Origin: a virus
DNA: 64,000 nt
IMG/VR virus record: IMGVR_UViG_3300042946_000581
Location: 1 to 64,000 of that record
Reading direction: 5' to 3' (one strand)
The position numbers and the translations under genes were made by a program. Below, piece by piece: positions 106 through 59,905 of this stretch; the stretch's first letter is position 1, and every line of letters starts with the position of its first letter. The notes beneath the pieces are model-generated. The model did no database searches, was not told where the DNA came from, and saw only the letters and a list, made by a program, of their open reading frames with translations.

Positions 106-177
106 TGCAAGGAAGGGCAACGGTCGTCCGCTAGGCTCATAACCTAGAAGCTGTGGGTTCGATTCCCACCCTTGCGT
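106..177 (+). tRNA. tRNA-Met/Ile2 (CAT)
   Basis: Cloverleaf with acceptor TGCAAGG/CCTTGCG, anticodon stem CTAGG/CCTAG around loop CTCATAA (anticodon CAT), and T-arm GTGGG-TTCGATT-CCCAC. CCA is not encoded. From sequence alone, CAT could be initiator Met, elongator Met, or an Ile tRNA whose wobble C is converted to lysidine. Confidence 0.88.
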
Positions 178-186
178 CAAACAAAT

Positions 187-261
187 TGCAAGATGGACTG
201 GAGGTGGTTCCAGCTCGGTCTCATAAGCCGTACCATGTGGGTTCGACTCCCACTCTTGCAA
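187..261 (+). tRNA. tRNA-Met/Ile2 (CAT), second copy
   Basis: Acceptor TGCAAGA/TCTTGCA is perfect. The anticodon loop is CTCATAA (CAT) on a stem with core CGG/CCG, and the T-arm is GTGGG-TTCGACT-CCCAC. It differs from the preceding CAT tRNA throughout the D-arm and anticodon stem, so the two are probably different species (for example elongator Met and Ile2) rather than a recent duplication. Confidence 0.85.
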
Positions 262-267
262 CTAAAA

Positions 268-352
268 GGGTGTCTATCCAAACGGTGAAGGAGGATGACT
301 GTAAATCATTTGCTATATGCTAAACTTGGGGGTTCGAATCCCTCGGCACCCA
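268..352 (+). tRNA. tRNA-Tyr (GTA)
   Basis: Acceptor GGGTGTC/GGCACCC, anticodon stem GATGA/TCATT around CTGTAAA (GTA), a long variable arm as expected of class II tRNA-Tyr, and T-loop TTCGAAT. No encoded CCA. Confidence 0.9.
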
Positions 353-626
353 CAAAAGAAATGAAACCTTACATAGGATGGATTAGCACCATTGAAAGAG
401 AACTTGTCTCTCAGAGGATCGCAACCTAAATCGAGAGTAATAATGACCCAAGTTGTTATGTAGGAGACCCTGCTCTACTGTGCACGGTATCAGGCTATGG
501 GGAACAAACCATCGTAAAACTCTTGCCCATATAATACTTATGGAAGGACTTTCATTTCTAATTTGCAGTAATAGCTCAATGGATATGTTCACATTCCTTG
601 AGACCTAAACATAAACCATTAAAAAA
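353..626 (+). other. tRNA-spacer with tRNA 5'-half remnant and possible structured RNA
   Basis: No credible protein gene. Visible structure includes a TATGGG (496-501)/CCCATA (526-531) stem and smaller hairpins. From about 565 the text resembles the first half of the following tRNA-Gly (GCAGTAATAGCTCAATGG versus GCATCAATAGCTCAATGG) but has no T-arm, so it looks like a tRNA remnant. The rest may be an untranslated structured RNA or tRNA-gene decay product. Confidence 0.35.
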
Positions 627-701
627 GCATCAATAGCTCAATGGTAGAGTTCTTGTCTTCCAAACAAGATGTTGCGAGTTCGAATCTCGCTTGATGCTCC
701 A
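627..701 (+). tRNA. tRNA-Gly (TCC), CCA encoded
   Basis: Acceptor GCATCAA/TTGATGC, anticodon stem TTGT/ACAA around CTTCCAA (TCC), T-arm GCGAG-TTCGAAT-CTCGC, discriminator T and an encoded CCA. Complete and canonical. Confidence 0.93.
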
Positions 702-720
702 TAAAATCTTTTAATTCGTT

Positions 721-1398
721 ATGGGTGAAAAGAAATTTAATTTTATTTATATGACTACTTGTTTAATTACATCAAAATACTATATTGGTATGCACTCAAC
801 CAATAATTTAAATGATGGATATTTTGGAAGTGGTAAAATTTTATCAAATTCAATAAAATTTTATGGTAAAGAAAATCATAAAATTGAGATTTTAGAACAT
901 TTTGATAATAGATTAGAATTAAAAAATAGAGAAAAAGAAATTGTTAATGAGTCATTATTAAATGATGTTTTATGTATGAATTTAGTTTTAGGTGGTGAAG
1001 GTGGATTTATAAGTGAGGAAGGCGCTAAAAAGGGTAGAGGTAAATGTGATGAAATTTTGAAAGTAAAATATGGTGAAAATTTCAAAAGTATTATATCTAA
1101 AAATTACCATAACAATTTAAATCCTGAACAAAAAGAAATACATATTAACAAAATTAAAGTATCCCATATTGGGTTAGATAAGAAAAATTTTTTAGGTAAA
1201 AAACATAATCAAGAAACAAAAGATAAAATATCTAAATCAAATTCAATTAACCAACAAGGAAACAAAAATTCACAATATGGTACTTGTTGGATTACTAAAG
1301 ATGGTTTGAATAAAAAAATTAAAATAGATGAAATTGTAGAATTTGAAAAAGAGGGTTGGAGAAAAGGGAGAGTTTTAGATAATATAAAGATAACATAG
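721..1398 (+). CDS. GIY-YIG homing endonuclease with NUMOD3-like motif
   Basis: A 225-residue free-standing homing endonuclease. The N-terminus carries a GIY-YIG nuclease core: the GIY position reads IYM, and KYYIGMH stands for the YIG element, followed by the GYFGSGK segment typical of Seg-type phage enzymes. Near residues 158-175, GKKHNQETKDKISKS matches the NUMOD3 DNA-binding repeat. It sits directly after tRNA-Gly and before small genes with no relation to it, as expected of a mobile intergenic gene. Such enzymes cut homologous sites lacking the insertion and drive their own spread. The start follows tRNA-Gly by 19 nt. Confidence 0.85.
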   Translation: MGEKKFNFIYMTTCLITSKYYIGMHSTNNLNDGYFGSGKILSNSIKFYGKENHKIEILEHFDNRLELKNREKEIVNESLLNDVLCMNLVLGGEGGFISEEGAKKGRGKCDEILKVKYGENFKSIISKNYHNNLNPEQKEIHINKIKVSHIGLDKKNFLGKKHNQETKDKISKSNSINQQGNKNSQYGTCWITKDGLNKKIKIDEIVEFEKEGWRKGRVLDNIKIT

Positions 1399-1403
1399 TA
1401 TGA

Positions 1404-1640
1404 ATGAAAACTTTTGAGGAGCAAAAAAGGTTAACTGAGTTAAAATATCTTAGAACTGGGGATAAAATCCATATTAAGTCTCGTGATGGTTTATATACCT
1501 TCTTAAAAAAAGACTTTAGAACTGGTGAAATTCATATAACCTGTAAAAGGTGGCAGTATGAAGAAAATCCGATAAGAGTAACAAGTTTTGATGATTTCAA
1601 ATGTTTGGCTGGTGGAATATGGAGAATTATTAACAATTAA
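1404..1640 (+). CDS. hypothetical protein, 78 aa
   Basis: Not recognised. A basic, beta-rich small protein with the phrase GDKIHIKSRDGLYTFLKK near the N-terminus, which could be an SH3-like barrel. It begins 5 nt after the homing endonuclease stop. An ATG four bases upstream runs into an immediate stop, which supports this start. Confidence 0.6.
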   Translation: MKTFEEQKRLTELKYLRTGDKIHIKSRDGLYTFLKKDFRTGEIHITCKRWQYEENPIRVTSFDDFKCLAGGIWRIINN

Positions 1641-1654
1641 TTTTTAAAAAGATT

Positions 1655-1873
1655 ATGAATAAGTCTGAAATAATTAAACAGATTAAAGATTTGAGTGGTT
1701 TTAATAGTTCTGATGCAACGATGGCTATAAATGTCGTGCAAGAAATTTTAACAACATCGTTATCAAAAGGTGAAAAAATAACCATTCCAAATTTTGGAAC
1801 ATTTGAAGTTGAGAACACAAAAATAATTTTTAAACCTAGTAAAAATTTGTTAAAGTCAATTAATAGCTTATAG
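1655..1873 (+). CDS. HU/IHF-family DNA-binding protein lacking the DNA-wrapping arm
   Basis: The 72 residues follow the HU fold: MNKSEIIKQIKDLSGF at the N-terminus, a helical dimerisation segment, then the signature IPNFGTFEVE. In ordinary HU (about 90 aa) this is followed by the long beta-arm carrying the RNP(Q/A)TG tip that intercalates into the minor groove. Here the chain goes directly from GTFEVENTK to the C-terminal FKPSKNLLKSI, so the arm is missing. The dimer core should still form, but DNA bending must differ from host HU. It lies between an unknown gene and tRNA-Ala. Confidence 0.85.
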   Translation: MNKSEIIKQIKDLSGFNSSDATMAINVVQEILTTSLSKGEKITIPNFGTFEVENTKIIFKPSKNLLKSINSL

Positions 1874-1900
1874 AGGAACTTGGGATATTAAATATAAAAA

Positions 1901-1974
1901 GGGGGATTAGCTCATTCAGCAAGAGCACTTGTTTTGCACACAAGAGGTGGTCGGAGCAAAGCCGACATCCTCCA
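1901..1974 (+). tRNA. tRNA-Ala (TGC) with aberrant T-loop
   Basis: Acceptor GGGGGAT/ATCCTCC includes the G3:U70 wobble pair that identifies alanine tRNAs. The anticodon stem CTTGT/ACAAG encloses TTTGCAC (TGC). The T-stem GTCGG/CCGAC is intact, but its loop is AGCAAAG instead of TTCRANY. CCA is not encoded. It may be a variant that escapes T-loop recognition, or a decaying gene. Confidence 0.75.
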
Positions 1975-2005
1975 CTAAACAATAAACATTTTTTAAAATA
2001 AATTT

Positions 2006-2605
2006 ATGAGAAAATTTTTAGTATTTTTAGTATTAGTAGTATTATTGACATCTTGGTCATATACACCCCCACGTAGGGTATTATTTATCGGTGATAGTTT
2101 AACCTGTGCAACTGGTGGGTGGCAAGACCAAGTTTCCAAACATTTTGGATATCAAAGGGTCAATTTATCTAAAGGTGGTGTTAGAACGGATTATATGAGG
2201 ACAACCCTAAATGCTTGTTTTAAAAACGATTCAGCTTTCTCACAAGTATTCATTTATGGTGGATGCAATGATGCTTTCTCTTATGTAAATCTCCAAGGTG
2301 CGGTTAATAACATTCAAATGATGGTTGATAGTTGTAATAGAAGAGGAATTGAACCAATTGTGATTGTGGGTTTTAATCCTGCTCAAGTAACAACAAAAAC
2401 TGTCTATGACGCAGAAACAACCAAGAGATGTGTTGGAAGATACATTGAGTTTCAAAAGTTGATGGTTCACGAGAAAACTGGTTTAAAAAATTGTAAGATA
2501 ATTCCAATGGATACAACAATGTTTTATAGTGATACTGGTGATGGAATTCATTTTGCAGCGAGTGGTCATAGAAAATTTGCTAATTGGGTTATAAAACATA
2601 TGTAA
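2006..2605 (+). CDS. secreted SGNH/GDSL-type hydrolase
   Basis: A 199-residue protein with an N-terminal signal sequence (residues 1-17, hydrophobic). The SGNH motifs follow: nucleophile S31 in FIGDSLT, the Asn block GGCND (N88), and the C-terminal DGIHF (D179, H182). The family comprises lipases, esterases and carbohydrate acetyl-esterases. Export to the periplasm or surface plus this fold suggests deacetylation or de-esterification of a host surface polymer or lipid, but the substrate cannot be read from the sequence. The next gene is a lipoprotein, starting 2 nt after this stop, so the pair is probably co-transcribed. Confidence 0.82.
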   Translation: MRKFLVFLVLVVLLTSWSYTPPRRVLFIGDSLTCATGGWQDQVSKHFGYQRVNLSKGGVRTDYMRTTLNACFKNDSAFSQVFIYGGCNDAFSYVNLQGAVNNIQMMVDSCNRRGIEPIVIVGFNPAQVTTKTVYDAETTKRCVGRYIEFQKLMVHEKTGLKNCKIIPMDTTMFYSDTGDGIHFAASGHRKFANWVIKHM

Positions 2606-2607
2606 AA

Positions 2608-2859
2608 ATGAAAAAAATATTTTGGTTTTCAATTTTAATCACTATCTTTGTATCCTGTAACAAACACCCCACAATAGAACCTGGTGATATTGTTAAGAAG
2701 TGTGTAATTGATACGATGTATATTACAGAATCAACATCCACAATTGAATTTGGTAAGAGATATAATTATAAAACCGATTGTGATGAATTGATATTGACAA
2801 GAAGAAGTGATGTATATAAAATAGGGGATACAATAACCTACGTTTATAAAAGAAGATAA
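2608..2859 (+). CDS. small lipoprotein
   Basis: The 83-residue product starts MKKIFWFSILITIFVSC, a short signal peptide ending in a lipobox with the lipidated Cys at residue 17. The mature part is about 65 residues of mixed charge with no recognised domain. I use the ATG that directly follows the hydrolase stop; an in-frame upstream start would put charged residues ahead of the signal peptide. Likely anchored in a host membrane together with the upstream SGNH hydrolase function. Confidence 0.72.
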   Translation: MKKIFWFSILITIFVSCNKHPTIEPGDIVKKCVIDTMYITESTSTIEFGKRYNYKTDCDELILTRRSDVYKIGDTITYVYKRR

Positions 2860-2866
2860 TATATTG

Positions 2867-2941
2867 GCTGGTAAAGCATAGGTGGTGATGCACTTGACTT
2901 GTAATCAAGATAATGGGGTTCGATTCCTCATACCAGCTCCA
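2867..2941 (+). tRNA. tRNA-Thr (TGT), CCA encoded
   Basis: Acceptor GCTGGTA/TACCAGC, anticodon stem CTTGA/TCAAG around CTTGTAA (TGT), T-loop TTCGATT, discriminator T and encoded CCA. Confidence 0.92.
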
Positions 2942-3186
2942 AAAATCCCAATTGATGTAGATAGATTGGGTGGTTAGCAAGCCCAATTGCTCGTATTATG
3001 GTTAATATGTCACTATAACCAGGGTTGCCAAGACCAGATTGTTGGCAGTTTACACGAGATAGTCACTCGCATTTTCTACAAAAGGCAAAAAACACTAGTC
3101 CGTTTCTACAGGATGATGGGGTATTGAAAAAGTGTAGCTAACTTGGAAGATACCCCAAAATTTTTTAAAAAAAACATAGGAAAAAA
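2942..3186 (+). ncRNA. structured non-coding RNA downstream of tRNA-Thr
   Basis: About 245 nt without a credible gene but with several nested complementary segments: ATTGGG 2965-2970 with CCCAAT 2982-2987, and CTCGT 2990-2994 with ACGAG 3054-3058. The latter pair encloses two hairpins, TGGTTA 2999-3004/TAACCA 3016-3021 and TGCCAA 3026-3031/TTGGCA 3042-3047. Further on, GGGGTAT 3118-3124 pairs with ATACCCC 3150-3156. The multi-branched arrangement suggests a folded RNA. I do not recognise the family. The strand is inferred from the flanking tRNA. Confidence 0.5.
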
Positions 3187-3246
3187 TGAATAATTCAGGA
3201 AGAACAACTATCTTTGTCTTATTAATCACTGAAACACATAATCACA

Positions 3247-3477
3247 ATGGCTAAAGAGAAAAAAACAATCCAAGTTGAGTTATTAAAAGAATTCGCAAAC
3301 AACTATTTGGCTATTCCAATGGTTTCTATCCAAGAAAAAATGGGCATTATCACAATGATTGAAAAGGTTCTACATGAATCCAATGCTTATAAAGGCTATA
3401 TGTATTTGAAACTTGAAGAAAACAATACCCCACCAGCATTTGAAACTGAGGGGTGGGTAACAAGAAAATATTTTTAG
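3247..3477 (+). CDS. hypothetical protein, 76 aa
   Basis: Not recognised. Helical and soluble; begins MAKEKKTIQVELLKEF and ends with an aromatic tail (GWVTRKYF). It follows the structured RNA region. A 22-codon frame overlaps its start but is not convincing. Confidence 0.6.
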   Translation: MAKEKKTIQVELLKEFANNYLAIPMVSIQEKMGIITMIEKVLHESNAYKGYMYLKLEENNTPPAFETEGWVTRKYF

Positions 3478-3583
3478 CGGTTGTGACACCTAATAATTCA
3501 CAAGTAGTGGTTGACACTTAGAATGTTACCTGACTTTATGGTTTGGAATAGAAAAACCGAAAACTTTTAAAACTTTGAATATT

Positions 3584-3847
3584 ATGACACTTATTTATGT
3601 AATCTTGGATAGTAACGATAGAATTCCTATTCTAACTACAAGTAGTATTGAAAAAGCTGAATTACTTTTGAATCAATATATGGGTGTTGAAGGTCCTATA
3701 TTTGATGAAAGTGTTGAGTATATAGGTTTTGAACCGTTTGATGACAGAGGTTATTATACACCTTATGAAGGTGAATACAAATATAAAACTGAAGATGGTG
3801 AACAAAGATTCATAAGATATTGTATGGGATTAGATACTTTAAATTAA
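3584..3847 (+). CDS. hypothetical protein, 87 aa
   Basis: Not recognised. An acidic small protein starting MTLIYVILDSNDRIPIL with a central aromatic/acidic stretch. The ATG is preceded by ATT, the common start context in this window. A TTG three codons upstream is the alternative. Confidence 0.55.
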   Translation: MTLIYVILDSNDRIPILTTSSIEKAELLLNQYMGVEGPIFDESVEYIGFEPFDDRGYYTPYEGEYKYKTEDGEQRFIRYCMGLDTLN

Positions 3848-3852
3848 AATTT

Positions 3853-3924
3853 AGTCTTGTAGGCAAATTGGTAAGTCACGAATACTAATGTAGGGGTACG
3901 CAGGTTCGATTCCTGTCAGGACTA
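3853..3924 (+). tRNA. tRNA with degenerate anticodon arm
   Basis: Acceptor AGTCTTG/CAGGACT pairs over seven positions and the T-arm (CAGG-TTCGATT-CCTG) is clear. The D-arm is short. The region where the anticodon stem should form (3879-3899) does not pair into five base pairs, so no anticodon is assigned. It is probably a tRNA pseudogene, or a tRNA needing an unusual fold. Confidence 0.5.
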
Positions 3925-3930
3925 CAACAT

Positions 3931-4019
3931 TTAAAACATCAACTCGTAAAGAAAATGATGGCAAAGAGGTTCAGATTAAAGGTAACGGGCTCCTACCTAC
4001 CCTGAACAAGATGTTTTAA
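3931..4019 (+). ncRNA. nested hairpin RNA between tRNA genes
   Basis: A perfect 10-bp inverted repeat (TTAAAACATC 3931-3940 with GATGTTTTAA 4010-4019) encloses a second stem (GTTCAG 3969-3974 with CTGAAC 4002-4007) and a smaller GGTA/TACC hairpin. Concentric stems spaced over 89 nt suggest a small structured RNA or processing element of the tRNA transcript. The family is not recognised. Confidence 0.45.
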
Positions 4020-4026
4020 TTAATAT

Positions 4027-4042
4027 GGTCAAGTGGCGGAAT
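4027..4042 (+). pseudogene. tRNA-Leu-like 5' remnant
   Basis: The sequence GGTCAAGTGGCGGAAT matches the acceptor/D-arm start typical of tRNA-Leu but stops abruptly 4 nt before the intact tRNA-Arg. It looks like the leftover 5' end of a tRNA-Leu gene. Confidence 0.35.
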
Positions 4043-4046
4043 ATTT

Positions 4047-4119
4047 GCACCCATAGCTCAACTGGAAGAGCAAAAATTTTCTAAGTTTTCGGTTGTAGGT
4101 TCGAGTCCTACTGGGTGTA
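4047..4119 (+). tRNA. tRNA-Arg (TCT)
   Basis: Acceptor GCACCCA/TGGGTGT (terminal G-U), D-arm AGCTCAACTGGAAGAGC, anticodon stem AAAAT/GTTTT around TTTCTAA (TCT), T-loop TTCGAGT. It reads AGA, a very common arginine codon in the phage genes here, consistent with supplementing host supply. Confidence 0.87.
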
Positions 4120-4139
4120 CTAAAACAAATTATAAAATT

Positions 4140-4325
4140 ATGAAATTTAAAGTAGGAGACAAAGTTTACAAACCGAAAGGTTACAAATTCCCAGGTATAG
4201 TTGTTGCGGTATTCCAAACTACATCTGGTGAAACAAGAATTGTTGCAGAATTAATTGATAATGGTATGTTACACATATTTAGTGAAAGTCAGTTAGAACT
4301 TGATAATGATGAAAAAAATGATTAA
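4140..4325 (+). CDS. small SH3/KOW-like protein
   Basis: A 61-residue protein beginning MKFKVGDKVYKPKGYKFPG. The VGDKVYKP...PGIVVAVF pattern is that of a small beta-barrel (KOW/SH3-like) as in many short phage proteins. An acidic tail follows. Function unknown. The next gene starts 1 nt after its stop. Confidence 0.6.
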   Translation: MKFKVGDKVYKPKGYKFPGIVVAVFQTTSGETRIVAELIDNGMLHIFSESQLELDNDEKND

Positions 4326-4326
4326 T

Positions 4327-4566
4327 ATGGAAAAAACTCCAATACAAAACGTTATAGACAGAGTTGAAAAACTTGTTAGAGAAGCTAAACAAAATACAGA
4401 GGAAAAAAGAAAATTAAATATAGTTATTTCTTATCTTTGGGATGAGTTACAAAATGAAAGATATGTAATGTCTGAAATTTATGAAAAAAGTAAAAAAGAA
4501 GATAATGAAGTAACTGGAAAAATGTGGATTGAAAAAAATTTTATAGACTATCAAAAATTTTTATAA
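4327..4566 (+). CDS. hypothetical protein, 79 aa
   Basis: Not recognised. Helical, highly charged (MEKTPIQNVIDRVEKLVREAK). The ATG directly after the upstream stop is chosen; further in-frame ATGs lie within the upstream gene. Its stop overlaps the ATG of the next small gene. Confidence 0.58.
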   Translation: MEKTPIQNVIDRVEKLVREAKQNTEEKRKLNIVISYLWDELQNERYVMSEIYEKSKKEDNEVTGKMWIEKNFIDYQKFL

Positions 4567-4694
4567 TGAAAGACGAAAATCAAGGTAAAACAAATGACCA
4601 AAGAGAATTTGCAATGTTTATGTTCTCTGGTTCAATGTTAGCACTAATTGTATTAGGATTGGTTTATCTCATTAAGGTGGGATTTAACCTTTAA
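4566..4694 (+). CDS. single-pass membrane miniprotein, 42 aa
   Basis: A 42-codon gene whose ATG overlaps the preceding stop (TAATG). A polar N-terminus (MKDENQGKTNDQREF) is followed by one transmembrane helix (about residues 17-38, SGSMLALIVLGLVYLIKVG). The tight overlap and clean membrane helix support it as real. Function unknown. Confidence 0.55.
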   Translation: MKDENQGKTNDQREFAMFMFSGSMLALIVLGLVYLIKVGFNL

Positions 4695-4701
4695 AAGAAA
4701 T

Positions 4702-4785
4702 GCCTGAGTGGTGGAATGGTAGACACGTTTGGCTTAGACCCAAATTCCGTTTAAAGGAGTAAGAGTTCGAATCTCTTCTTAGGTA
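4702..4785 (+). tRNA. tRNA-Leu (TAG)
   Basis: Acceptor GCCTGAG/CTTAGGT, anticodon stem TTTGG/CCAAA around CTTAGAC (TAG), a long variable arm as in class II tRNAs, T-loop TTCGAAT. No encoded CCA. Confidence 0.9.
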
Positions 4786-4808
4786 CTAACATTTTAAAAA
4801 AAGAAATT

Positions 4809-5921: not shown

Positions 5922-6413
5922 ATGAACATTTTTTTCTTAGACTACGATGTTGTTAAATGTGCTAAATACCATTGCGACAAACACGCAATCAAGATGATTT
6001 TGGAATCAGCACAATTATTATGTGGTGCCCACCACGCAACAAATTCCAAATTGGATATTCCTTATAAATTATCCCACAAAAACCACCCCTGTTCAATATG
6101 GGTTAGAGAATCATTATCTAACTATTTATACTTATGTGAACTTGGGTTGGAATTGTGTAAGGAGTATACTTATAGGTATGGAAAACGTCATAAATCCCAG
6201 GATGTTATTGAGTGGTGTGTAACAAATTTTGTCAATATTTGTGACAAAGGTTTTACTGAACCACCCAAAGCAATGCCGGATGAATATAAGGTTAAAGACG
6301 TTATTCAATCTTATAGGAACTATTACATTGGTGCAAAAAAAGATTTTGTTTCTTGGAAAAATCGTGATGTTCCCTATTGGTTTTGTGAAGAAAATCACTT
6401 AGAATTGGTATAA
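5922..6413 (+). CDS. conserved phage protein (HCDKH family)
   Basis: A 163-residue protein starting MNIFFLDYDVVKCAKYHCDKH. This N-terminus, the KNHPCSIWVRES block, the YRYGKRHKS block and the C-terminal QSYRNYYIGAKK belong to a conserved family seen in many large phages with no settled function. The dense conserved His/Cys/Asp set suggests a metal-dependent or catalytic protein. Confidence 0.7.
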   Translation: MNIFFLDYDVVKCAKYHCDKHAIKMILESAQLLCGAHHATNSKLDIPYKLSHKNHPCSIWVRESLSNYLYLCELGLELCKEYTYRYGKRHKSQDVIEWCVTNFVNICDKGFTEPPKAMPDEYKVKDVIQSYRNYYIGAKKDFVSWKNRDVPYWFCEENHLELV

Positions 6414-10782: not shown

Positions 10783-11064
10783 ATGAAAAAAATTATAAAA
10801 TTAACAGAATCAGATTTAATTAGATTAGTAAAGAAAGTTATTAAAGAAGAAGATGGTGAATATCTTAGAGGGGAACTTCACGCACTTGTTGGAAAAGTAA
10901 TGAAACTTGAAAAAAGAATGGAAATGCGTGGTAATCCTGACTGGATGGTGGAAGAATACGAGGAAGCTGAAAAGGAACTTAAAAAATTCCTTCAAAAACA
11001 TCCTTCTATGAATGATTATCTTGAAGAGGTTGAGAATCACTTTATTAAACGATTATACCAATAA
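10783..11064 (+). CDS. internal virion-type protein with N-terminal helix tag, 93 aa
   Basis: Begins MKKIIKLTESDLIRLVKKV followed by IKEE, the clearest example here of the shared N-terminal helix. The remaining 70 residues are a charged helical hairpin. By analogy with T4 capsid-targeting sequences, the tag would direct the protein into the prohead and be removed after an acidic residue near position 23-24. It has its own late promoter and terminator. Confidence 0.62.
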   Translation: MKKIIKLTESDLIRLVKKVIKEEDGEYLRGELHALVGKVMKLEKRMEMRGNPDWMVEEYEEAEKELKKFLQKHPSMNDYLEEVENHFIKRLYQ

Positions 11065-11079
11065 TTTAATTAAAAAAAT

Positions 11080-11110
11080 AAACCCCTTCTTAACGGAGGG
11101 GTTTCTTTTT
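11080..11110. terminator. bidirectional terminator between the tagged gene and tmRNA
   Basis: AACCCCT ... AGGGGTTT hairpin with T-runs on both strands: it ends the + strand gene and, read on the - strand, the tmRNA. Confidence 0.75.
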
Positions 11111-11114
11111 TAAA

Positions 11115-11494
11115 GGTGGAGGCATGGAGAGTCGAACTCCTTCCTGTCCATCTTAACTATTAAGGACTACATGTTTAGGACAACATTATTCGCAGTGTTC
11201 CGAACTATTTGATTTTCATACACCCAAAATCAACAAAATCGGTCAATTCATTTTTAGGGATGAGAATTGATTAGACAACCCTATAGCGCTCCTGTTCCTG
11301 AGTTAATGCACCCCGACTCGAAAGTAATACCCTATTAACTAGGCTACTACCGCTTCTTCAGCACGGATTAAACCTACTGCAGAAAGTTTGTTGATAACGT
11401 TGCCGTGTATCGTTTCAAACCAGTTTAACAGACTTAGTTTAGGTCTGACATGCCCCTAATAACTAACAACGTCAGTCAATTCCAGATTACCCCC
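11115..11494 (-). ncRNA. ssrA: transfer-messenger RNA (tmRNA)
   Basis: Read on the minus strand, the 5' end GGGGGTAATCTGGAATTGAC and the 3' end (ACATGTAGTCC ... GGAG-TTCGACT-CTCC-ATGCCTCCACC) match the two halves of the tRNA-like domain. The acceptor pairs GGGGGTA with TGCCTCC and contains G3:U70, the alanyl-tRNA synthetase identity pair. The CCA is incomplete. In the middle, a frame ending at TAG (11341-11339) encodes a C-terminus RAEEAVVA, giving a likely tag AVGLIRAEEAVVA if GCA at 11380 is the resume codon. tmRNA with SmpB frees stalled ribosomes and tags the product for proteolysis. A shorter alternative frame (ATLSTNFLQ) is less tag-like. Confidence 0.92.
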
Positions 11495-11549
11495 TTTTGT
11501 AAAGTACTACAATGATAAATATAATGATTGATAATTCCAAGTTTTGATT

Positions 11550-11557
11550 ATATTTAT
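11550..11557 (+). promoter_or_regulatory. late-promoter element
   Basis: ATATTTAT followed by TTTAATAAAA, 16 nt before the chosen ATG of the 458-aa gene. Confidence 0.5.
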
Positions 11558-11573
11558 TTTAATAAAAAAATGT

Positions 11574-12950
11574 ATGGAATATTCTAATAACGATATATTG
11601 TTTGAAAATGAAAAATACTTGGCAATTAAATCTCCAAATATGGAAGAGGGTTTAAAAGTAGGTCCAGAATTCTTAACTACAACAAGACATGGTAAAGATG
11701 TCTATAATAATAGAACAGTATACTTTTTCATTAATAAAGAAGAAAAAGATACTAGATATGGAATTATAACTCTAACACTTGGAAAGTATGGTACTGAGTT
11801 ATATGATAACTATGGTGATGATGTTGAATTAAGAGATGCTTTTTATTATTTTCCAATTTTAGATAAAACAATTACAGACATAGTTGGTGATGTTGATTTA
11901 ATAACAACCTTAACATTAATTGAGAACGGGAAAGAATTTGATAGATGGAAATTACAGAGATTAGATTCTAATATCAAATATGTTCAATATAATCAAAAAA
12001 GACCTAAACTTAGTAAAATATATTTAACCTTTGATTCAAGTGAGGGGATTTTAGAATTTTTGGATTTCCCAGATGATGTTCAATATTACATTAAAACAGT
12101 TTTAAATCCATATGGTTATGGTGGTGATTTATGGGGTGACCATTATAGAATGACCGATGAATGGATTGAGGGTTATATGATACAATCATTTAATGATGAG
12201 AATAGAAAATTAGTTGACAAAATTGTTGAATTAATAAAACCAGAATTTTTTAATTGGAAAGAAGAAGAGGGAATAAGAGAAGAGTTATGTAAGTTATTGT
12301 ATGAAATGTTTGATAGTAGAATAAGGAATATTATAAGTGAATATGGCACAGTATATGAAAATGCTGGAAGTGAGGCTTTAAAAAAAGAATTAATTGATGA
12401 TTTTTGTAATCTATTTGTTGATAATAATTTTCAAATATTTGTGGTAAAGAATTATTGTTTTGATGAATATAGAACTTGGGTTAGTTATTTGAAAGAGCTT
12501 TTAATACAATATCGTGTTGATACTATTGAAGATTTAGTAAAAAGAATATCAGAAGACCATATTAACGCAGACTTAGGACATGAAATTAATGAATATCCAT
12601 ATCATGGTGATATTGACGAAGAATCTTTTAACAGAGAAGTTGAATCCGAACTTGAAAAAATAATTGACCAAATTGAAGAAAATCCTGAAAAGTACTCAAA
12701 GAATGCTAGTGAGAATGGAAAATTAGTTTTAATACTTAAAAAGTACCCTTTGAATAAACCATTCTCAATTGATGATGGAAGAGGTTTGGTTACTATCACA
12801 GGAATTAAAGATGGGAGACTTCTTGTAACTCATATTAAAACGAATGGTGAAAGAACAAATAAGAGTTTCAATTCTGAAGAATTTTATAATTTTATTGCAA
12901 TGGGTGAATTATTTGAAGATTTAGTTAGAAAATTAAAAAGAATGTTGTAA
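11574..12950 (+). CDS. large unknown protein with C-terminal helix tag
   Basis: A 458-residue acidic protein with no recognised domain. The N-terminal half has alternating strands with many aromatic residues, the middle (about 220-380) is helical, and a small beta domain (VTITGIKDGRLLVTHIKTNG) precedes the C-terminus FEDLVRKLKRML. That terminus resembles the shared C-terminal tag. The ATG at MEYSNND fits the spacing from the late element; an upstream start would lie within it. Confidence 0.62.
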   Translation: MEYSNNDILFENEKYLAIKSPNMEEGLKVGPEFLTTTRHGKDVYNNRTVYFFINKEEKDTRYGIITLTLGKYGTELYDNYGDDVELRDAFYYFPILDKTITDIVGDVDLITTLTLIENGKEFDRWKLQRLDSNIKYVQYNQKRPKLSKIYLTFDSSEGILEFLDFPDDVQYYIKTVLNPYGYGGDLWGDHYRMTDEWIEGYMIQSFNDENRKLVDKIVELIKPEFFNWKEEEGIREELCKLLYEMFDSRIRNIISEYGTVYENAGSEALKKELIDDFCNLFVDNNFQIFVVKNYCFDEYRTWVSYLKELLIQYRVDTIEDLVKRISEDHINADLGHEINEYPYHGDIDEESFNREVESELEKIIDQIEENPEKYSKNASENGKLVLILKKYPLNKPFSIDDGRGLVTITGIKDGRLLVTHIKTNGERTNKSFNSEEFYNFIAMGELFEDLVRKLKRML

Positions 12951-12959
12951 TATTGTGTC

Positions 12960-13775
12960 ATGAAACACAATTACGATTTACTCAAAAAGGTTTTGTCCAT
13001 ACCTACCAAGACATACAAAGAGGACTTAATGATTCAATTCCTAGGTGAATGGTTAACAGAAAACAATATCCCTTATCAAGTTGATAAGATGGGTAATGTA
13101 TATGCAACCAAACAAACGGATGATATTGAATATTTTCCTTGTGTTGTTGCACATACCGACACAGTCCACGAATTGGATACAATCAACATTAAAGAAATGA
13201 TGTTACCCAATGACCAAAAAGAATTAAAACCAGCATTAAAAGCTTTTAATGATAAAGGAGAACCAACAGGTATTGGTGGGGATGACAAATGTGGTGTTTA
13301 TGTATGTTTGGAATTATTAAAAAATTTACCAAATGTGAAAGCCGCATTTTTTGTCTCAGAAGAAACTGGTTGTCACGGTTCAAAGAATGCAGATAAAGAG
13401 TTTTTCTCAAATGTTGGATATGTTATTCAATTTGACGCCCCAGGTAATTGGATGGTTAGTGAATATTGTATGGGGACAAAATTATTTGATAAGAAGTCTG
13501 AATTCTTCATCAAATGTGATAAGGTGTTAACTGAGGGATTTGATAACAGAAACAAGTACCAGTCACATCCTTATACTGATGTTTATGCTCTCAAAAATCA
13601 ATTTGATTTTTCTTGTATAAATTTCGCCGTAGGGTATTACAACTACCACACAAAACACGAATATGTGATTGTCGAGGATGTTTTTAATACATTGGAAATT
13701 GCAAAGAAAATGATTAATAATTTGGGGAATGTGAAATATTTTGAGGAAGTTAAATCAAGTAAATTTTTACTATAA
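12960..13775 (+). CDS. M20-family (PepT-like) metallopeptidase
   Basis: A 271-residue di-zinc hydrolase: VVAHTDTVH (ligand H65), GIGGDDKCG (bridging D108), SEETGCHGS (catalytic/ligand Glu 134-135), QFDAPG (D159), and the C-terminal YHTKHEYV (last His ligand). All metal ligands of the M20 catalytic domain appear present. At 271 aa it is much shorter than PepT/ArgE (about 400) and appears to lack the lid/dimerisation domain, probably acting as a compact aminopeptidase. It could recycle peptides or cleave a host target. Starts 9 nt after the preceding stop. Confidence 0.8.
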   Translation: MKHNYDLLKKVLSIPTKTYKEDLMIQFLGEWLTENNIPYQVDKMGNVYATKQTDDIEYFPCVVAHTDTVHELDTINIKEMMLPNDQKELKPALKAFNDKGEPTGIGGDDKCGVYVCLELLKNLPNVKAAFFVSEETGCHGSKNADKEFFSNVGYVIQFDAPGNWMVSEYCMGTKLFDKKSEFFIKCDKVLTEGFDNRNKYQSHPYTDVYALKNQFDFSCINFAVGYYNYHTKHEYVIVEDVFNTLEIAKKMINNLGNVKYFEEVKSSKFLL

Positions 13776-13793
13776 AAAAAAACCAATTTTTGA

Positions 13794-13803
13794 TAATATT
13801 TAT
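13794..13803 (+). promoter_or_regulatory. late-promoter element TAATATTTAT
   Basis: Perfect element plus TATAAAA, 15 nt before the ATG of the repeat-containing tagged gene. Confidence 0.65.
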
Positions 13804-13818
13804 TATAAAAATTTAAAA

Positions 13819-14844
13819 ATGAAAAAAATAATTTATTTGAATGAATCTGATTTATATCAGATAAGTAATAGAGTTATAGAAGAACAAGAACTTGATGAAA
13901 TTATGAGATTTAATTTACCAGTTGGGACTCAATTAGGTAATATATATCAAGGTATAAGAGGATTTACAAAAGGTGAAAGTTATAGTTACTTCAATTATTT
14001 GAGTAAAATTAAGAATAGAAGTAAAAGAGTAATGAATGAAATTGACCATATTGAAACTTTCGTAAAATACCTAATTGATTTAAGACCAAAGATTGAGAAA
14101 ATAAAAATAGCCCCAGAAAAAAAATTACGATTATTGAATTTATTAGATCGTGTAATTAATAAATGGCAACCATTTTTTCCTGAATTTAGTGACGCGATTA
14201 AAGAAGTAAATAAACTAAGTAGTGAAAAATTGAGTGGTAAAAGATTAGATGTCGTTCCAGGTCTTGACCCAAATGAAATAGGTAGTGATTTAATGGAACC
14301 TCAAGTTGCTCAAGTTAATTTAGGAGGGAATAATAATTCAAGTGGTTCTAAATCTACTGGTGGTAATCCTAATCCTATGGGTGGTTCTAAATCTACTGGT
14401 GGTAATTCTAATCCTACTGGAGGTGGTTCTAAATCTACTGGTGGTAATTCTAATCCTACTGGAGGTGGTTCTAAATCTACTGGTAATAATCCTAATCCTA
14501 CTGGTGGTGGTTCTAATCCTACTGGTAATAATCCAATGGGTGGTTCTAAAAATACAAATCCAATTGTGGATGACGATGATTTTATTGATTATGAAGAAGT
14601 TGATGATACGGATGAACCTTTTATGTTAAACCCACCAACAGAAAAAAAACCAACAACAGATGATTTATCATCAGTATCAAATCGTAGAAGAAAAGACCCT
14701 AACACAAAAGATAATTGGGGTAGTGGAAATAAACCTAAAAATGATATTGGTATAGACGATGATGATTTATCAGATGAAGAAAAGATGTTATTAGGTAAGA
14801 CAGTAACAGAAGAAATAGAAAGATTTAAAGAATTAATTAGATAA
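13819..14844 (+). CDS. tagged internal-type protein with Gly/Ser/Asn repeat linker
   Basis: Begins MKKIIYLNESDLYQISNRV, then IEEQ: the shared N-terminal helix with a predicted processing site (VIEE before Q). A helical domain to about residue 150 is followed by a flexible Gly-Ser-Lys-Thr-Asn-Pro repeat (about 175-250), an acidic stretch, and the C-terminus TEEIERFKELIR. It therefore carries the tag at both ends. The ATG 15 nt after the promoter element is used; earlier in-frame sequence lies within the promoter. Confidence 0.65.
   Translation: MKKIIYLNESDLYQISNRVIEEQELDEIMRFNLPVGTQLGNIYQGIRGFTKGESYSYFNYLSKIKNRSKRVMNEIDHIETFVKYLIDLRPKIEKIKIAPEKKLRLLNLLDRVINKWQPFFPEFSDAIKEVNKLSSEKLSGKRLDVVPGLDPNEIGSDLMEPQVAQVNLGGNNNSSGSKSTGGNPNPMGGSKSTGGNSNPTGGGSKSTGGNSNPTGGGSKSTGNNPNPTGGGSNPTGNNPMGGSKNTNPIVDDDDFIDYEEVDDTDEPFMLNPPTEKKPTTDDLSSVSNRRRKDPNTKDNWGSGNKPKNDIGIDDDDLSDEEKMLLGKTVTEEIERFKELIR
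14340..14560 (+). repeat. coding tandem repeat (SKSTGGN-NPTGGG)
   Basis: Imperfect tandem units of about 36-45 nt encoding Gly/Ser/Thr/Asn/Pro. Adjacent units are nearly identical in DNA as well as protein, so the array probably expands and contracts by slippage. Confidence 0.8.
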
Positions 14845-14878
14845 AAAAAAGGGACTATTCAGTCCCTTTTTTCTTTTT
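14843..14878. terminator. bidirectional terminator between convergent genes
   Basis: AAAAGGGACT/AGTCCCTTTT perfect 10-bp hairpin (14847-14856/14861-14870) with T-runs on both strands. It lies between the tagged gene and the 3' end of the ClpC-like gene and overlaps the latter's stop region. Confidence 0.85.
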
Positions 14879-16885
14879 TGATTTTTTAACTTCTTTTTCT
14901 TTAAACACTATATTTTCTTCATTGGTTGTGAGCTCATAATTTTCATTCTCAACAACATTTCCGTTAAGTACTTCCTCGGATATGAAATCTTCAATTTTGT
15001 CTTGTATGGCTCGTTTTATTGGCCTTGCGCCATATGTTTCATCAAACCCAACTTTTGAAATCAAATCGTAAACAGATTCATCACAAGTTATATTATAATT
15101 TAATCCATTCAATCTATTAATTAATTTCTCAATTTCAAGTTTTACAATTTGTTTAACTTCTTCTTCTTTCAAAGTATTAAATACAATAATTTCATCAATA
15201 CGATTTAAGAACTCAGGAGCAAAAAACTTTTTAAGTTCTTTCTTTAGCATATCTCTTTTTTCTTCCTCTTCAATGTAAGAATTTGTACTTGTTTTAAATC
15301 CAACACCAGTTCCAAATTCTTGGAATTTTTTAACCCCAAGATTGGAGGTCATAATTATGATACAATTTTTGAAATTGATTTTTCTTCCCAATCCATCAGT
15401 AAGATGTCCATCATCCAACACTTGAAGTAATGTTGAGAATACATCTTTATTCGCCTTTTCAATTTCATCAAATAGAATAACTGAATATGGTTTATTTTTA
15501 ACTTGTTCAGTTAATTGTCCGCCTTCATCATAACCAACATAACCTGGGGGCGAACCTATCAATCTTGATATTGAATGTTTTTCTTGGTATTCTGACATAT
15601 CAACTCGGATAAGGTTTTCTTCACTACCAAAGATTTCTTTGGCCAATTGTTTTGCTAGATACGTTTTACCCACACCTGTTGAACCCAAGAAAATAAATGA
15701 ACCTATAGGTTTACTTGGGTCTTTAATACCAAGTCTATTTCTACGAATTGATTTGGCAATTTTGGATACCGCTTCAGATTGACCAATGACTTTAGATGAA
15801 AGATTATCCGCCAATGATGAAAGTTTATTCGTTTCATCTGAGTTCATTTTTGATACAGGTATTTTGGTCATATTAGATACAACTTCATAAACCAATTCAA
15901 ATGAAATATCTTTTTTCTTGGTTAATAAATCAGATTCAAATTTTTTCTTTTCTGATTCTAATTTATCCAATATTTTTGTTTCTTTATCTCGTAAATCTGC
16001 AGCTTGTTCATAATTTTGACTTTTAACAACCTCAATCTTTTGTTGTTTAATATCCAACGCTTGAAGTTTCAAGTCTTCAATGATTTGGGGCATCTTAGTG
16101 TCAACTTGACTTCTTGCCCCAACTTCATCAATGATATCAAAAGCCTTATCAGGGAATTCTCTATCTGTGATATATCTTTCTGCCAAATCAACACAAAGTT
16201 TTAGAATCTCATCACTATAACTTACTTTATGATAATTTTCATATTTGTCTTTAACATTAATTAAAATCTGTAAGGTTTCTTCTTTTGTTGAGGGGTCAAC
16301 AATTACTTTTTGGAAACGTCTTTCTAATGCCCCATCTTTTTCAAAATTCTTTCTATATTCATCTAAGGTTGTTGCGCCAATACATTGTATTTCACCCCTT
16401 GCCAAAGCTGGTTTAAAAATGTTTGACGCATCCAATGAACCTGATGAATTCCCGGCACCAACTATTTGGTGTATTTCATCAATGAAAAGAATTATATTTG
16501 GGGCAGATTGTAGTTCTTCAATAATAACTTTCATTCTTTCTTCAAATTGTCCACGATATTTTGTTCCCGCAACAATTGATGTCATATCCAAGGACATAAT
16601 TCTTTTATCCATTAGATTTCTTGGACATTCCCCATTCAATATTTTTAATGCTAAACCTTCTACTATTGCGGTTTTTCCACAACCAGGTTCACCAATTATA
16701 ATTGGATTATTCTTTTTTCTTCTTGATAATATTTGGGCGATTCTTGTTATTTCTCTATCTCTACCAACCACGGGGTCTAATTTCCCTTCTTCGGCAAGTT
16801 TGATTAAATCCTTTGCGAAGTTATTTAATACTGGGGTATCACCTTTACCTTTTGTTGAGTAATCTCCATCTTTTGATTCTATCAT
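14855..16885 (-). CDS. ClpC-like double AAA+ unfoldase without N-domain
   Basis: A 676-residue Hsp100 protein. D1 has Walker A GEPGCGKT (65-72) and Walker B IILFIDE (131-137). D2 has Walker A GSTGVGKT (401-408), Walker B VILFDE (469-474) and the GYVG pore loop. Between them a short middle segment contains a UVR-like stretch (about 288-303). It lacks the usual 140-residue N-domain for adaptors, starting just before D1. Residues 528-530 are VGF in the position of the ClpP-docking loop of ClpC/ClpA, and this loop is absent from ClpB. So it may feed host ClpP. A Lys-rich tail ends the chain. Confidence 0.9.
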   Translation of the reverse strand: MIESKDGDYSTKGKGDTPVLNNFAKDLIKLAEEGKLDPVVGRDREITRIAQILSRRKKNNPIIIGEPGCGKTAIVEGLALKILNGECPRNLMDKRIMSLDMTSIVAGTKYRGQFEERMKVIIEELQSAPNIILFIDEIHQIVGAGNSSGSLDASNIFKPALARGEIQCIGATTLDEYRKNFEKDGALERRFQKVIVDPSTKEETLQILINVKDKYENYHKVSYSDEILKLCVDLAERYITDREFPDKAFDIIDEVGARSQVDTKMPQIIEDLKLQALDIKQQKIEVVKSQNYEQAADLRDKETKILDKLESEKKKFESDLLTKKKDISFELVYEVVSNMTKIPVSKMNSDETNKLSSLADNLSSKVIGQSEAVSKIAKSIRRNRLGIKDPSKPIGSFIFLGSTGVGKTYLAKQLAKEIFGSEENLIRVDMSEYQEKHSISRLIGSPPGYVGYDEGGQLTEQVKNKPYSVILFDEIEKANKDVFSTLLQVLDDGHLTDGLGRKINFKNCIIIMTSNLGVKKFQEFGTGVGFKTSTNSYIEEEEKRDMLKKELKKFFAPEFLNRIDEIIVFNTLKEEEVKQIVKLEIEKLINRLNGLNYNITCDESVYDLISKVGFDETYGARPIKRAIQDKIEDFISEEVLNGNVVENENYELTTNEENIVFKEKEVKKSKKKKGTE

Positions 16886-17040: not shown

Positions 17041-17475
17041 ATGAACAGCAAAGATTTTTATAAAAAATTTGAAGAAATTTTAAATGAAATTTTCAGTCAA
17101 GACAATCAAAAATTTAATGCCCCTATGGATGGATTTTTCAAAGGGTTAAAATCTGAGGACATTTCAAAAGAAATAAAAAAATACAGAAATTCTGTTAGAA
17201 AATCTAGTGATGGATTATTTACAACTATTAGTTTCATATTTACTAATCCACCATTTAGTGATAAGAGTGAAATTAATGAATTGAAATCTAAATTAGAGGA
17301 ATGCGTATCAAATCAAGATTTTGAGGAAGCTGCAAAATTAAGAGATAAAATTAAAGAACTTGAGAATAACACATCTAAGGTTAAAGATTTAAAAAAAGAG
17401 TTGGACATTGCGATTAAAGAACAAAATTTTGAAAGAGCAATTGAAATCCGAGATGAATTAAAAAAAATAAACTAA
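17041..17475 (+). CDS. UVR-motif protein, McsA-like candidate Clp adaptor
   Basis: A 144-residue protein with two UVR motifs: ELKSKLEECVSNQDFEEAAK (about 78-108) and DLKKELDIAIKEQNFERAIE (about 114-144). UVR motifs are helical hairpins found in UvrB, UvrC, ClpC and the ClpC adaptor McsA. The N-terminal 75 residues have no zinc-binding Cys, unlike McsA. It is divergently placed next to the ClpC-like gene, sharing a 155-nt control region, so an adaptor role is the best inference. A DNA-repair role via UvrB mimicry is the alternative. Confidence 0.72.
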   Translation: MNSKDFYKKFEEILNEIFSQDNQKFNAPMDGFFKGLKSEDISKEIKKYRNSVRKSSDGLFTTISFIFTNPPFSDKSEINELKSKLEECVSNQDFEEAAKLRDKIKELENNTSKVKDLKKELDIAIKEQNFERAIEIRDELKKIN

Positions 17476-33104: not shown

Positions 33105-34808
33105 ATGTCATTAACATTATCACAAATACAAAATATAATTCAGTTATACATAAATGAGGGTTACTCTACCCACAAATTAGCTGAACAATTTAAGGTAGGA
33201 CATAAGAAGATTAGTCAAATCCTTAAGGACAATAATATAGAAATTAAAAAGAGGGGTGGACAAATTAAGATTGGCAATAGTAGTGAATTAGAAAAATCCA
33301 AGATAAATAAATACATTTCTGAGGATAAGGAACTTACTGCTAAGTGTAAACAAACAAATATCATAATTAATGACCCCAACAATTTATCAGGAAAATTAAC
33401 AAAACATATAATTGATTTATATGGTGATATTAATATTCCAACAAACACATATCAAAGAAAGAAATACGAACAAATCAATGGTAAAAAATGGTTTGAGGAA
33501 TATTTTGATATAATAGAAATTGATAAAGATATAAAAAGAAAATGTGGGTTATGTGAATGGGAAACAACTGATATTAATAACAAATCTGGTTGTTTTACAA
33601 ATCATATACAAGATGTGCATAATATATCTCTTGATGACTATTTGATTCAATTCCCTAATGATATACAATATCACCAAAATTACATTAAAAAGACAGATAG
33701 AGATAAAGAATTATTATTACAAGAAAATTTCGTTATATGTCAATTGTGTAATAAAAAAATGAAATCCATTACTAATTCACATTTATTAAATAAACACAAT
33801 ATTACTGTTGAGGAATACAAACTTAAATTTCCAAATTCAAAAATTGTATCGGAATCAACATCAAATGTTCTAAGTGAACTTATTAAAGAAACAAATATAA
33901 ATTTTCAACCAACTTGGACATCAAAAGGTGAAACTGAAATTAAAGAGTTTATTGAAGGTTTGGGATTTGAAATTTATAAGGGGAAAAATAGAAAATTATT
34001 GGAGGGTAAGGAAATTGATTTAATTATACCAAAACTTAAAATAGCTATTGAATATAATGGATTATATTTTCATACTGAAGAAATGGGTAAAAATTCAATA
34101 TACCATTTGAATAAAACATTGGCTTGTAATCAATTGGGGTTTAAACTAATTCACGTTTTTGAAGATGAGTGGATGGCAAATAGAGAATTGGTTAAATCAA
34201 AACTAAAACATATTCTTGGCGTTAGTGATGGAATTAAAGTTGGTGCAAGAAAAACAATTATTAAAGAAATCATTAAAGAAGATAAGTCATATTTTTTAGA
34301 TGAGTTTCATATTCAAGGAAATGATAAATCAGATATTTTTTATGGTGCTTATTATGATAATATTTTGGTTGGGGTTATGACATTCAATAGTCAAAGAAAT
34401 ATGACAAAAAATAATGATGGGGAATATGAATTAAGTAGATTTTCTACAAGACAAGGATATGTTATAAGTGGATTGGGTTCTAAAATGATGAAACAATTCA
34501 TAACTGATTATTCTCCTAAAAGTATAATAAGTTTTGCTGATAGAAGATGGACTACAGATGGAAACAATAATATGTATATAAATTTGGGATTTGAACTTGT
34601 ATCAATATTAAAACCTACTTATTTCTATTATAGTTCAAAGATTAATCGATATAAGAGGTATCATAAGTTTTCTTTTGGTAAAAACAATTTAAAAAAGAAA
34701 TATACTAATTTGGATTTTAATAAAAGTGAATCTGAGTTAACCAAAGAATTGGGATTTTCCAAAATATGGGATTGTGGATTATTTAAATATAAGATTAATT
34801 TTTTTTAA
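33105..34808 (+). CDS. Hef-like homing endonuclease (HTH, Zn fingers, PD-(D/E)XK)
   Basis: A 567-residue multidomain protein. A helix-turn-helix (LSQIQNIIQLYINEGYSTHK and following, 3-45) resembles that of the preceding HNH gene. Two C-x2-C...H-x-(3-4)-H elements follow (KCGLCEW...HIQDVH, and CQLCNKKMK...HLLNKH). Next is a VSR/PD-(D/E)XK nuclease (EIKEFIEGLGFEIYKG ... KEIDLIIPKLKIAIEYNG) and a C-terminal GNAT-like fold (GVMTFNSQRN ... SGLGSKMMKQF). It is likely a selfish endonuclease; the capsid neighbourhood may hold its target. Confidence 0.78.
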   Translation: MSLTLSQIQNIIQLYINEGYSTHKLAEQFKVGHKKISQILKDNNIEIKKRGGQIKIGNSSELEKSKINKYISEDKELTAKCKQTNIIINDPNNLSGKLTKHIIDLYGDINIPTNTYQRKKYEQINGKKWFEEYFDIIEIDKDIKRKCGLCEWETTDINNKSGCFTNHIQDVHNISLDDYLIQFPNDIQYHQNYIKKTDRDKELLLQENFVICQLCNKKMKSITNSHLLNKHNITVEEYKLKFPNSKIVSESTSNVLSELIKETNINFQPTWTSKGETEIKEFIEGLGFEIYKGKNRKLLEGKEIDLIIPKLKIAIEYNGLYFHTEEMGKNSIYHLNKTLACNQLGFKLIHVFEDEWMANRELVKSKLKHILGVSDGIKVGARKTIIKEIIKEDKSYFLDEFHIQGNDKSDIFYGAYYDNILVGVMTFNSQRNMTKNNDGEYELSRFSTRQGYVISGLGSKMMKQFITDYSPKSIISFADRRWTTDGNNNMYINLGFELVSILKPTYFYYSSKINRYKRYHKFSFGKNNLKKKYTNLDFNKSESELTKELGFSKIWDCGLFKYKINFF

Positions 34809-58586: not shown

Positions 58587-59246
58587 TTAAATTAATTTTG
58601 AATGTTTTTCATATAATATTTTATCATTTTCATCAAATGCTTGTCCGACAAATCTTCCTTTATTTCTGTTTGTTGGAAATTGTTTTTTATCTGAATTAAA
58701 ATTAAAAAATTCATCGTGAATTAAAGAATTATCTTTAACTAATGGGTAAATTTTTTCTCTTAAGAAGTTTTGGTCAACTTGCCAAAAACTACCTTTAATA
58801 TATTCATCTATTAATTTTATCATTTGCGGTAGTACTCCTTTTTTCGAACCCCACATACCACCTAAAATAGCTGTATTATGATAAGGATGGTCTCTCATTA
58901 TATGAAAACCTTTATCAGAATTTAACCATTCGTCAACCGCAAGTTTTTCTCTTTCAGAGAGTCTTGAATCGCAATCTCTAGATATCATAACATCCACATC
59001 TTCTTCTGAAGCCGGATAAAATCTCCAAAACATACCTGTCCAATCCCCATCAACATCCATCTCAACTACTTCAACATGTGAAAATTGTTTAAGTTGTTCA
59101 ATAACTTTATAATCAGTGCTTTTACCAATATAAAATCTACAAATCCAACCTGAATAAATTATTGGAGATAATTCAGCATTACGTATTGCCCCAATTGTAT
59201 ATATTGGGTTATTACCCCATAAAGAAAAACTTATTATTTTTTTCAT
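58587..59246 (-). CDS. GT-A glycosyltransferase-like protein
   Basis: A 219-residue protein starting MKKIISFSLWGNNPIYTIGA with a DxD-type SRDCDSRLSEREK (about 90-102) and a later HDEFFNF. The ISFSLWG start and SRD-x-D-S motif recur in phage and bacterial small glycosyltransferases. Overlaps the next gene by 4 nt. Confidence 0.65.
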   Translation of the reverse strand: MKKIISFSLWGNNPIYTIGAIRNAELSPIIYSGWICRFYIGKSTDYKVIEQLKQFSHVEVVEMDVDGDWTGMFWRFYPASEEDVDVMISRDCDSRLSEREKLAVDEWLNSDKGFHIMRDHPYHNTAILGGMWGSKKGVLPQMIKLIDEYIKGSFWQVDQNFLREKIYPLVKDNSLIHDEFFNFNSDKKQFPTNRNKGRFVGQAFDENDKILYEKHSKLI

Positions 59247-59902: not shown

Positions 59903-59905
59903 ATT

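Follow-up and report, generated by a model that had tools for sequence, protein, structure and literature searches.

Background

Full-length tmRNAs are already known from phage genomes (PMC4131195, PMC9004378), with examples in mycobacteriophages such as Bxz1, in Bacillus phage G, in the marine phage Melnitz and in huge phages (PMC4131195, PMC9004378, PMC7162821), and in huge phages both tmRNA and SmpB can occur (PMC7162821). The gene analyzed in this work is likewise a complete tmRNA on a phage genome. However, it is linked to a gene for a Clp unfoldase and it encodes a member of a conserved, phage-specific tag family. For phage tmRNAs, we found neither the pairing with ClpC nor such a tag family described in the open-access literature, which was the scope of our search, subscription papers and preprints lying outside it.

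With the ssrA genes of Bacteroidota the phage gene shares the one-piece organization, the G3:U70 pair, the GGC resume codon and a tag that starts with Gly-Glu/Asn. On the other hand, the host tag comprises 9 amino acids and ends in NYALAA or QFALAA, whereas the phage tag comprises 21-22 residues, ends in VVA or TVA and has a conserved interior. The ssrA tag of Mesoplasma florum is read by its cognate Lon and is orthogonal to the E. coli system (PMC9097571), thereby providing an example of a tmRNA tag with its own protease; that system, however, is cellular and relies on Lon, whereas here it is viral and the presumed partner is a ClpC-like unfoldase. The ClpC proteins of B. subtilis and S. aureus resemble the phage protein in having two AAA+ modules, a short M region and a VGF docking loop, but the phage protein is devoid of the N-domain and belongs to a separate phage clade rather than to the bacterial ClpC proteins. 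Finally, phage SPO1 redirects the ClpCP pathway by means of Gp53, an adaptor that acts on host ClpCP (PMC6873191); here, instead of an adaptor for the host ClpC, the phage brings the unfoldase itself, together with a tagging RNA.

The phage and its probable host

The window, i.e. the whole stretch of DNA analyzed here, covers positions 1 to 64,000 of a virus record that is 98,690 bases long. It comes from a T4-like phage with a T4-type terminase, a portal, a gp23-type head protein and an S77 prohead protease, whose head protein places it closest, among annotated phages, to Microcystis phage Mel-JY01, Flavobacterium phages of the immuto group and an uncultured huge phage. A Shine-Dalgarno-like 4-mer precedes none of the 55 genes examined in the window (about 3 would be expected by chance), and these genes have A-rich leaders. 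The GGC resume codon is found in the Bacteroidota tmRNAs sampled, while the other sampled phyla resume on other codons. The lack of Shine-Dalgarno-like 4-mers, the GGC resume codon and the Flavobacterium phage relatives together point to a host from Bacteroidota, an assignment that we regard as probable. The Bacteroidota promoter pattern TTTG-N17-21-TANNTTTG gives a weak signal, with 12 occurrences in the window vs. 6.2 expected and a shuffle maximum of 11, and the scan of the window found none at the tmRNA.

Some other features of the window deserve a mention. A cluster of eight tRNA genes (106-4786) encloses an extra tRNA-like Rfam match (3853-3924, plus strand; 37.8 bits) that is not reported by ARAGORN. 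The gene for the major head protein is followed closely by one for a homing/HNH endonuclease (33105-34808, plus strand; phrog_3339, 8.4e-88), and the product of 5922-6413 (plus strand) exhibits a weak match, below the Pfam cut-off, to a pyrimidine dimer DNA glycosylase.

Identification and structure of the tmRNA

The preliminary description of this region, prepared without database searches, reported a phage tmRNA with the G3:U70 pair on the minus strand, and this observation is confirmed (Table 1). The Rfam model RF00023, which had been proposed there as a check, matches positions 11494-11114 with 84.8 bits (E 1.9e-31), compared to the gathering score of 47, and the match extends over model positions 1-374 of 374. 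ARAGORN, named there alongside Rfam, did not call the tmRNA when run on the window. A BLASTN search of the tmRNA region against 50,697 annotated phage records revealed nothing related, but only one weak, unrelated match.

The claim had also been made dependent on the presence of pseudoknots and on the ability of the tRNA-like domain to form. We refer to an alignment of 30 related tmRNAs, in which 42 pairs from the acceptor stem, the T stem, the long helix and pseudoknot 1 were counted. In this set 87.3% of the cells are paired, a share that drops to 70.9% for shuffles and does not exceed 55% for slid versions, and 32 of the 42 pairs have undergone changes on both sides. The acceptor and T stems covary among the relatives, and the 3:70 pair is GU in all 30 of them. 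Pseudoknot 1, located upstream of the resume codon, has stems that vary yet stay complementary (CAGAC:GUCUG, CGGGG:CCCUG, AGGAG:CUCCU), and a per-sequence search for it yielded a mean score well above that of shuffles. The variable region that follows the tag, the expected place of pseudoknots 2 to 4, aligned poorly.

The copy in the window has one terminal mismatch in the T stem, and its 3' end reads A73-C-C-U, so that the gene does not supply the last A of CCA and this tmRNA would depend on CCA addition; 24 of the related tmRNAs have a fully encoded CCA. Immediately 3' of the gene, on the tmRNA strand, there is an inverted repeat with a T-rich tail (11104-11080), which the hairpin scan entered under the plus strand. 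We predict that this is a working tmRNA, which very likely performs trans-translation with the SmpB of the host. As a separate observation, two related tmRNAs (L089 and L090) have at their 3' ends the T arm TTGGG-ATCGTGA-CCCAA, in which the stem is kept and another sequence stands in place of the usual TTCRANY loop; between tmRNAs that are otherwise near-identical the T arm varies, as though it had been swapped as a block.

Table 1. Features of the tmRNA-clp region, in window coordinates
Feature	Position	Strand	Evidence
tmRNA gene, one-piece, non-permuted, about 381 nt	11114..11494	-	Rfam RF00023; compensatory changes in 30 relatives
5' half of tRNA-like domain, acceptor strand GGGGGUA	11475..11494	-	Rfam alignment; G3:U70 invariant 30/30
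Pseudoknot 1: stem 1 CAGAC:GUCUG, stem 2 UAAACUA:UGGUUUG	11416..11447	-	Same form in most relatives, compensatory variation
Tag reading frame: resume codon GGC (11404-11402), tag GNVINKLSAVGLIRAEEAVVA, stop TAG (11341-11339)	11339..11404	-	Tag family in 58/58 related tmRNAs; synonymous share
3' half of tRNA-like domain: T arm GGAG-UUCGACU-CUCC, acceptor strand UGCCUCC, A73, CCU	11114..11155	-	Rfam alignment, sequence, relatives
Intrinsic terminator directly after tmRNA: AAACCCCTCCGTTAAGAAGGGGTTT, then ATTTTTTT	11080..11104	-	Sequence; hairpin scan
Protein of 468 aa, no family match	11544..12950	+	Homologue in 48/80 clp loci
M28/M42-like peptidase, between clp and tmRNA	12960..13775	+	Pfam, phrog_4191; homologue in 76/80 clp loci
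ClpC-like AAA+ unfoldase, 676 aa, two AAA+ modules, short M region with UVR-like motif, docking loop GTGVGFKT, no N-domain	14855..16885	-	Pfam, PDB match, 80 homologues
UVR-motif protein, McsA C-terminus-like, divergent from clp	17041..17475	+	Pfam UVR 5.4e-21; NCBIfam McsA 2.6e-11 (below cut-off); 34/80 loci

A conserved family of tag peptides

The internal reading frame closes at TAG, as originally proposed. The tag suggested in the preliminary description, AVGLIRAEEAVVA, represents the last 13 residues of a longer peptide, which begins at GGC and comprises 21 residues, GNVINKLSAVGLIRAEEAVVA. Peptides of one family are encoded by all 58 tmRNAs compared (the window and 57 contigs of the same phage group). 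These 37 different sequences of 21 or 22 residues conform to the pattern G-(N/D/E)-(V/T)-(L/I/F)-x-K-(M/L)-x-x-x-G-L, with a -VA end in 49 of the tmRNAs, and the resume codon is GGC in 52 cases, GGA in 5 and GAC in 1. Within the 21-residue set, positions G1, G11 and L12 are invariant, and K6 and A21 nearly so. The synonymous share of single-base codon differences amounts to 0.69 in the tag frame vs. 0.31 and 0.11 in the other frames; the tag frame is under purifying selection, and that frame only. The alternative frames were rejected: of 35 tag DNAs, 31-33 contain stops in these frames, and synonymous bias is absent from them.

The dissimilarity to the tags of Bacteroidota hosts noted earlier holds for the Bacteroidota ssrA genes sampled: they encode GENNYALAA, GENNFALAA, GNENYALAA or GERQFALAA, i.e. 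9 residues vs. 21 in the phage, with the GGC resume codon common to both. One of the bacterial genomes, that of Bacteroides propionicigenes (G083, contig C1), contains two tandem tmRNA genes (58982-59379 and 59587-59983), with the tags GERQFALAA and GNENYALAA. The possibility that the phage tag resists host ClpXP, also raised in the preliminary description, should not be assumed, since the tag ends in the small hydrophobic -VVA, which could be readable by host ClpX. Among the proteins encoded in the window we found none with a C-terminus resembling the tag, as would be expected for mimicry.

The ClpC-like unfoldase and its linkage with the tmRNA

Upstream of the tmRNA and on the same strand lies the clp gene (14855-16885), whose product matches the Pfam families AAA_2, AAA, AAA_lid_9 and ClpB_D2-small. 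The best PDB matches are to ClpC, with alignments that start at residue 157 of that protein, and the NCBIfam equivalog cut-offs for ClpB (824 vs. 1232) and ClpA (722 vs. 993) are not reached. Both AAA+ modules are present, with Walker A and Walker B motifs and arginine fingers. The Walker motifs, the pore loop, the arginine finger and the (V/I)GF docking loop are kept in nearly all of the 80 Clp homologues, and every listed variant contains the docking loop, which is GTGVGFKT in the window copy. The (V/I)GF loop is the element by which ClpC, ClpA and ClpX bind ClpP. The N-terminal adaptor-binding domain is absent from the phage protein, and the 80 homologues possess only a short N-terminal stretch. 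In the phylogenetic tree, the Clp proteins of this phage group form one clade with support of 1.0, which sits next to Clp proteins from huge phages and from other phages and is separate from the bacterial homologues. In GTDB genomes the best relatives are bacterial ClpC proteins, at about 52% or less, and hence no binned host contig of the phage was identified.

The clp and tmRNA genes are tightly linked. A full-model tmRNA match is found in 41 of the 50 whole contigs that carry the phage clp gene, always downstream, on the same strand and at a distance of 1.9-4.4 kb, and most of the remaining contigs end too soon for a tmRNA to be included. When only the clp loci with at least 4.5 kb of downstream sequence are considered, the tmRNA is present in 51 of 52 (49 detected by script, L070 and L075 by Rfam, with L022 as the exception). 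In the reciprocal test, in which loci were fetched by the tmRNA helix sequence alone, the clp gene is present in all 24 loci with at least 4.6 kb upstream. Neither clp nor tmRNA was found in immuto, RM378 and Mel-JY01, the isolates nearest by the head/capsid protein, and in some huge phages the two genes are far apart. The clp, peptidase and tmRNA genes adjoin conserved structural genes; therefore, the linkage may partly reflect conserved gene order, and it is no proof of shared function. Moreover, since genes on the opposite strand separate clp from the tmRNA, the two do not form one operon.

Neighboring genes and possible partners

In agreement with the preliminary description, which saw no SmpB gene in the window, a search of all 98,690 bases of the record, which may be incomplete, revealed no gene for SmpB or ClpP. 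Among the relatives, SmpB is encoded at most about 1 kb from the tmRNA in G012 and G014, and an SmpB homologue occurs beside the tmRNA in about twelve loci in all. ClpP is encoded in 10 of 34 relatives, elsewhere than at the tmRNA; eight of these sequences were read, and all of them show the Ser, His and Asp motifs of the catalytic site. It is possible, albeit speculative, that the UVR/McsA-like protein (17041-17475) is a Clp regulator. Two further details of the neighborhood may be recorded: in G014 a SET-domain protein (L278, 5725-6105, minus strand) is encoded between the tmRNA and SmpB, and in the window the proteins encoded at 10783-11064 and 13741-14844 (both plus strand), otherwise unrelated, share an N-terminal motif like MKKIIxLxESDL.

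A possible mechanism and its alternatives

We consider it somewhat more probable than otherwise that these genes constitute a phage trans-translation system, in which the phage unfoldase recognizes the long tag and works together with ClpP from the host or from the phage. According to this scenario, the tmRNA would be expressed in infected cells, charged with alanine by the host AlaRS and delivered by the host SmpB (or by the phage SmpB in some relatives), and it would enter ribosomes stalled on broken mRNA, free them and append the 21-residue tag GNVINKLSAVGLIRAEEAVVA. The tagged fragments would then be recognized and unfolded mainly by the phage ClpC-like ring, which has no N-terminal adaptor domain and has kept the ClpP-docking loop, and destroyed by ClpP of the host or, in some relatives, of the phage, while the linked M28/M42-like peptidase may finish the resulting peptides. 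The tag and its reader would both be supplied by the phage, as suggested by the long conserved tag, by the co-inherited ClpP-docking unfoldase without the N-domain and by the SmpB and ClpP that some of these phages encode. The earlier idea that tagged products are routed to a different protease has thus gained circumstantial support from the group-wide linkage of such an unfoldase with the tmRNA. More tentatively, and as something we would entertain rather than expect, the phages may possess a viral pathway for tagging and degradation that uses a code of its own, in which a degron of 21-22 residues and a co-inherited N-domain-less ClpC reader, complemented by SmpB and ClpP in some members, are separate from the host ssrA-ClpXP.

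It is also conceivable, though in our opinion rather unlikely, that the tmRNA works but the tagged proteins are degraded by host ClpXP, ClpCP or Lon, that the phage ClpC-like protein serves a different purpose (for instance, dissolving aggregates or removing selected host proteins), and that the linkage exists only via the conserved genome core. The tag ends, -(V/T/A)VA, are small and hydrophobic like those of many ssrA degrons, the order of the neighboring structural genes is likewise conserved, and the phages LR745206, LR756502, SCTP-2 and BF encode a Clp protein with no tmRNA match, all of which agree with this explanation. However, degradation by host proteases alone accounts poorly for a linkage that is near perfect both ways, for a strongly conserved tag interior that a simple C-terminal ClpX degron does not need, and for an unfoldase that has retained the ClpP loop and lost the adaptor-binding N-domain.

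We find it improbable that the tag is a decoy or a stabilizing element, i.e. that the phage tmRNA competes with its host counterpart for stalled ribosomes and SmpB and gives its products a mark that lets them escape host degradation, thereby sparing phage fragments or jamming the quality control of the host. The phage tag does differ from the host GENNYALAA type, and the tmRNA of phage DS6A, reduced to the tRNA-like domain, reportedly inhibits the host tmRNA in E. coli (PMC11915505, PMC4131195), but a decoy needs neither a full-length RNA with a selected reading frame nor an accompanying ClpP-docking unfoldase. Hardly any credence can be given to the view that the gene is a decaying relic of a captured host tmRNA: the missing ARAGORN call, the T-stem mismatch and the lack of an encoded CCA in the window copy would fit such decay, but it is already contradicted by the compensatory changes in all helices counted and by the tag frame, open in 58 of 58 tmRNAs with synonymous bias, and the tmRNA has its own terminator.

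Conclusions

The T4-like phages described here form a widespread group in which the tmRNA is accompanied both by a long tag under selection and by a linked unfoldase. Why phages carry tmRNA can thereby be addressed in a defined biochemical test, with one tag and one protein, which may together represent an orthogonal degron-protease pair.
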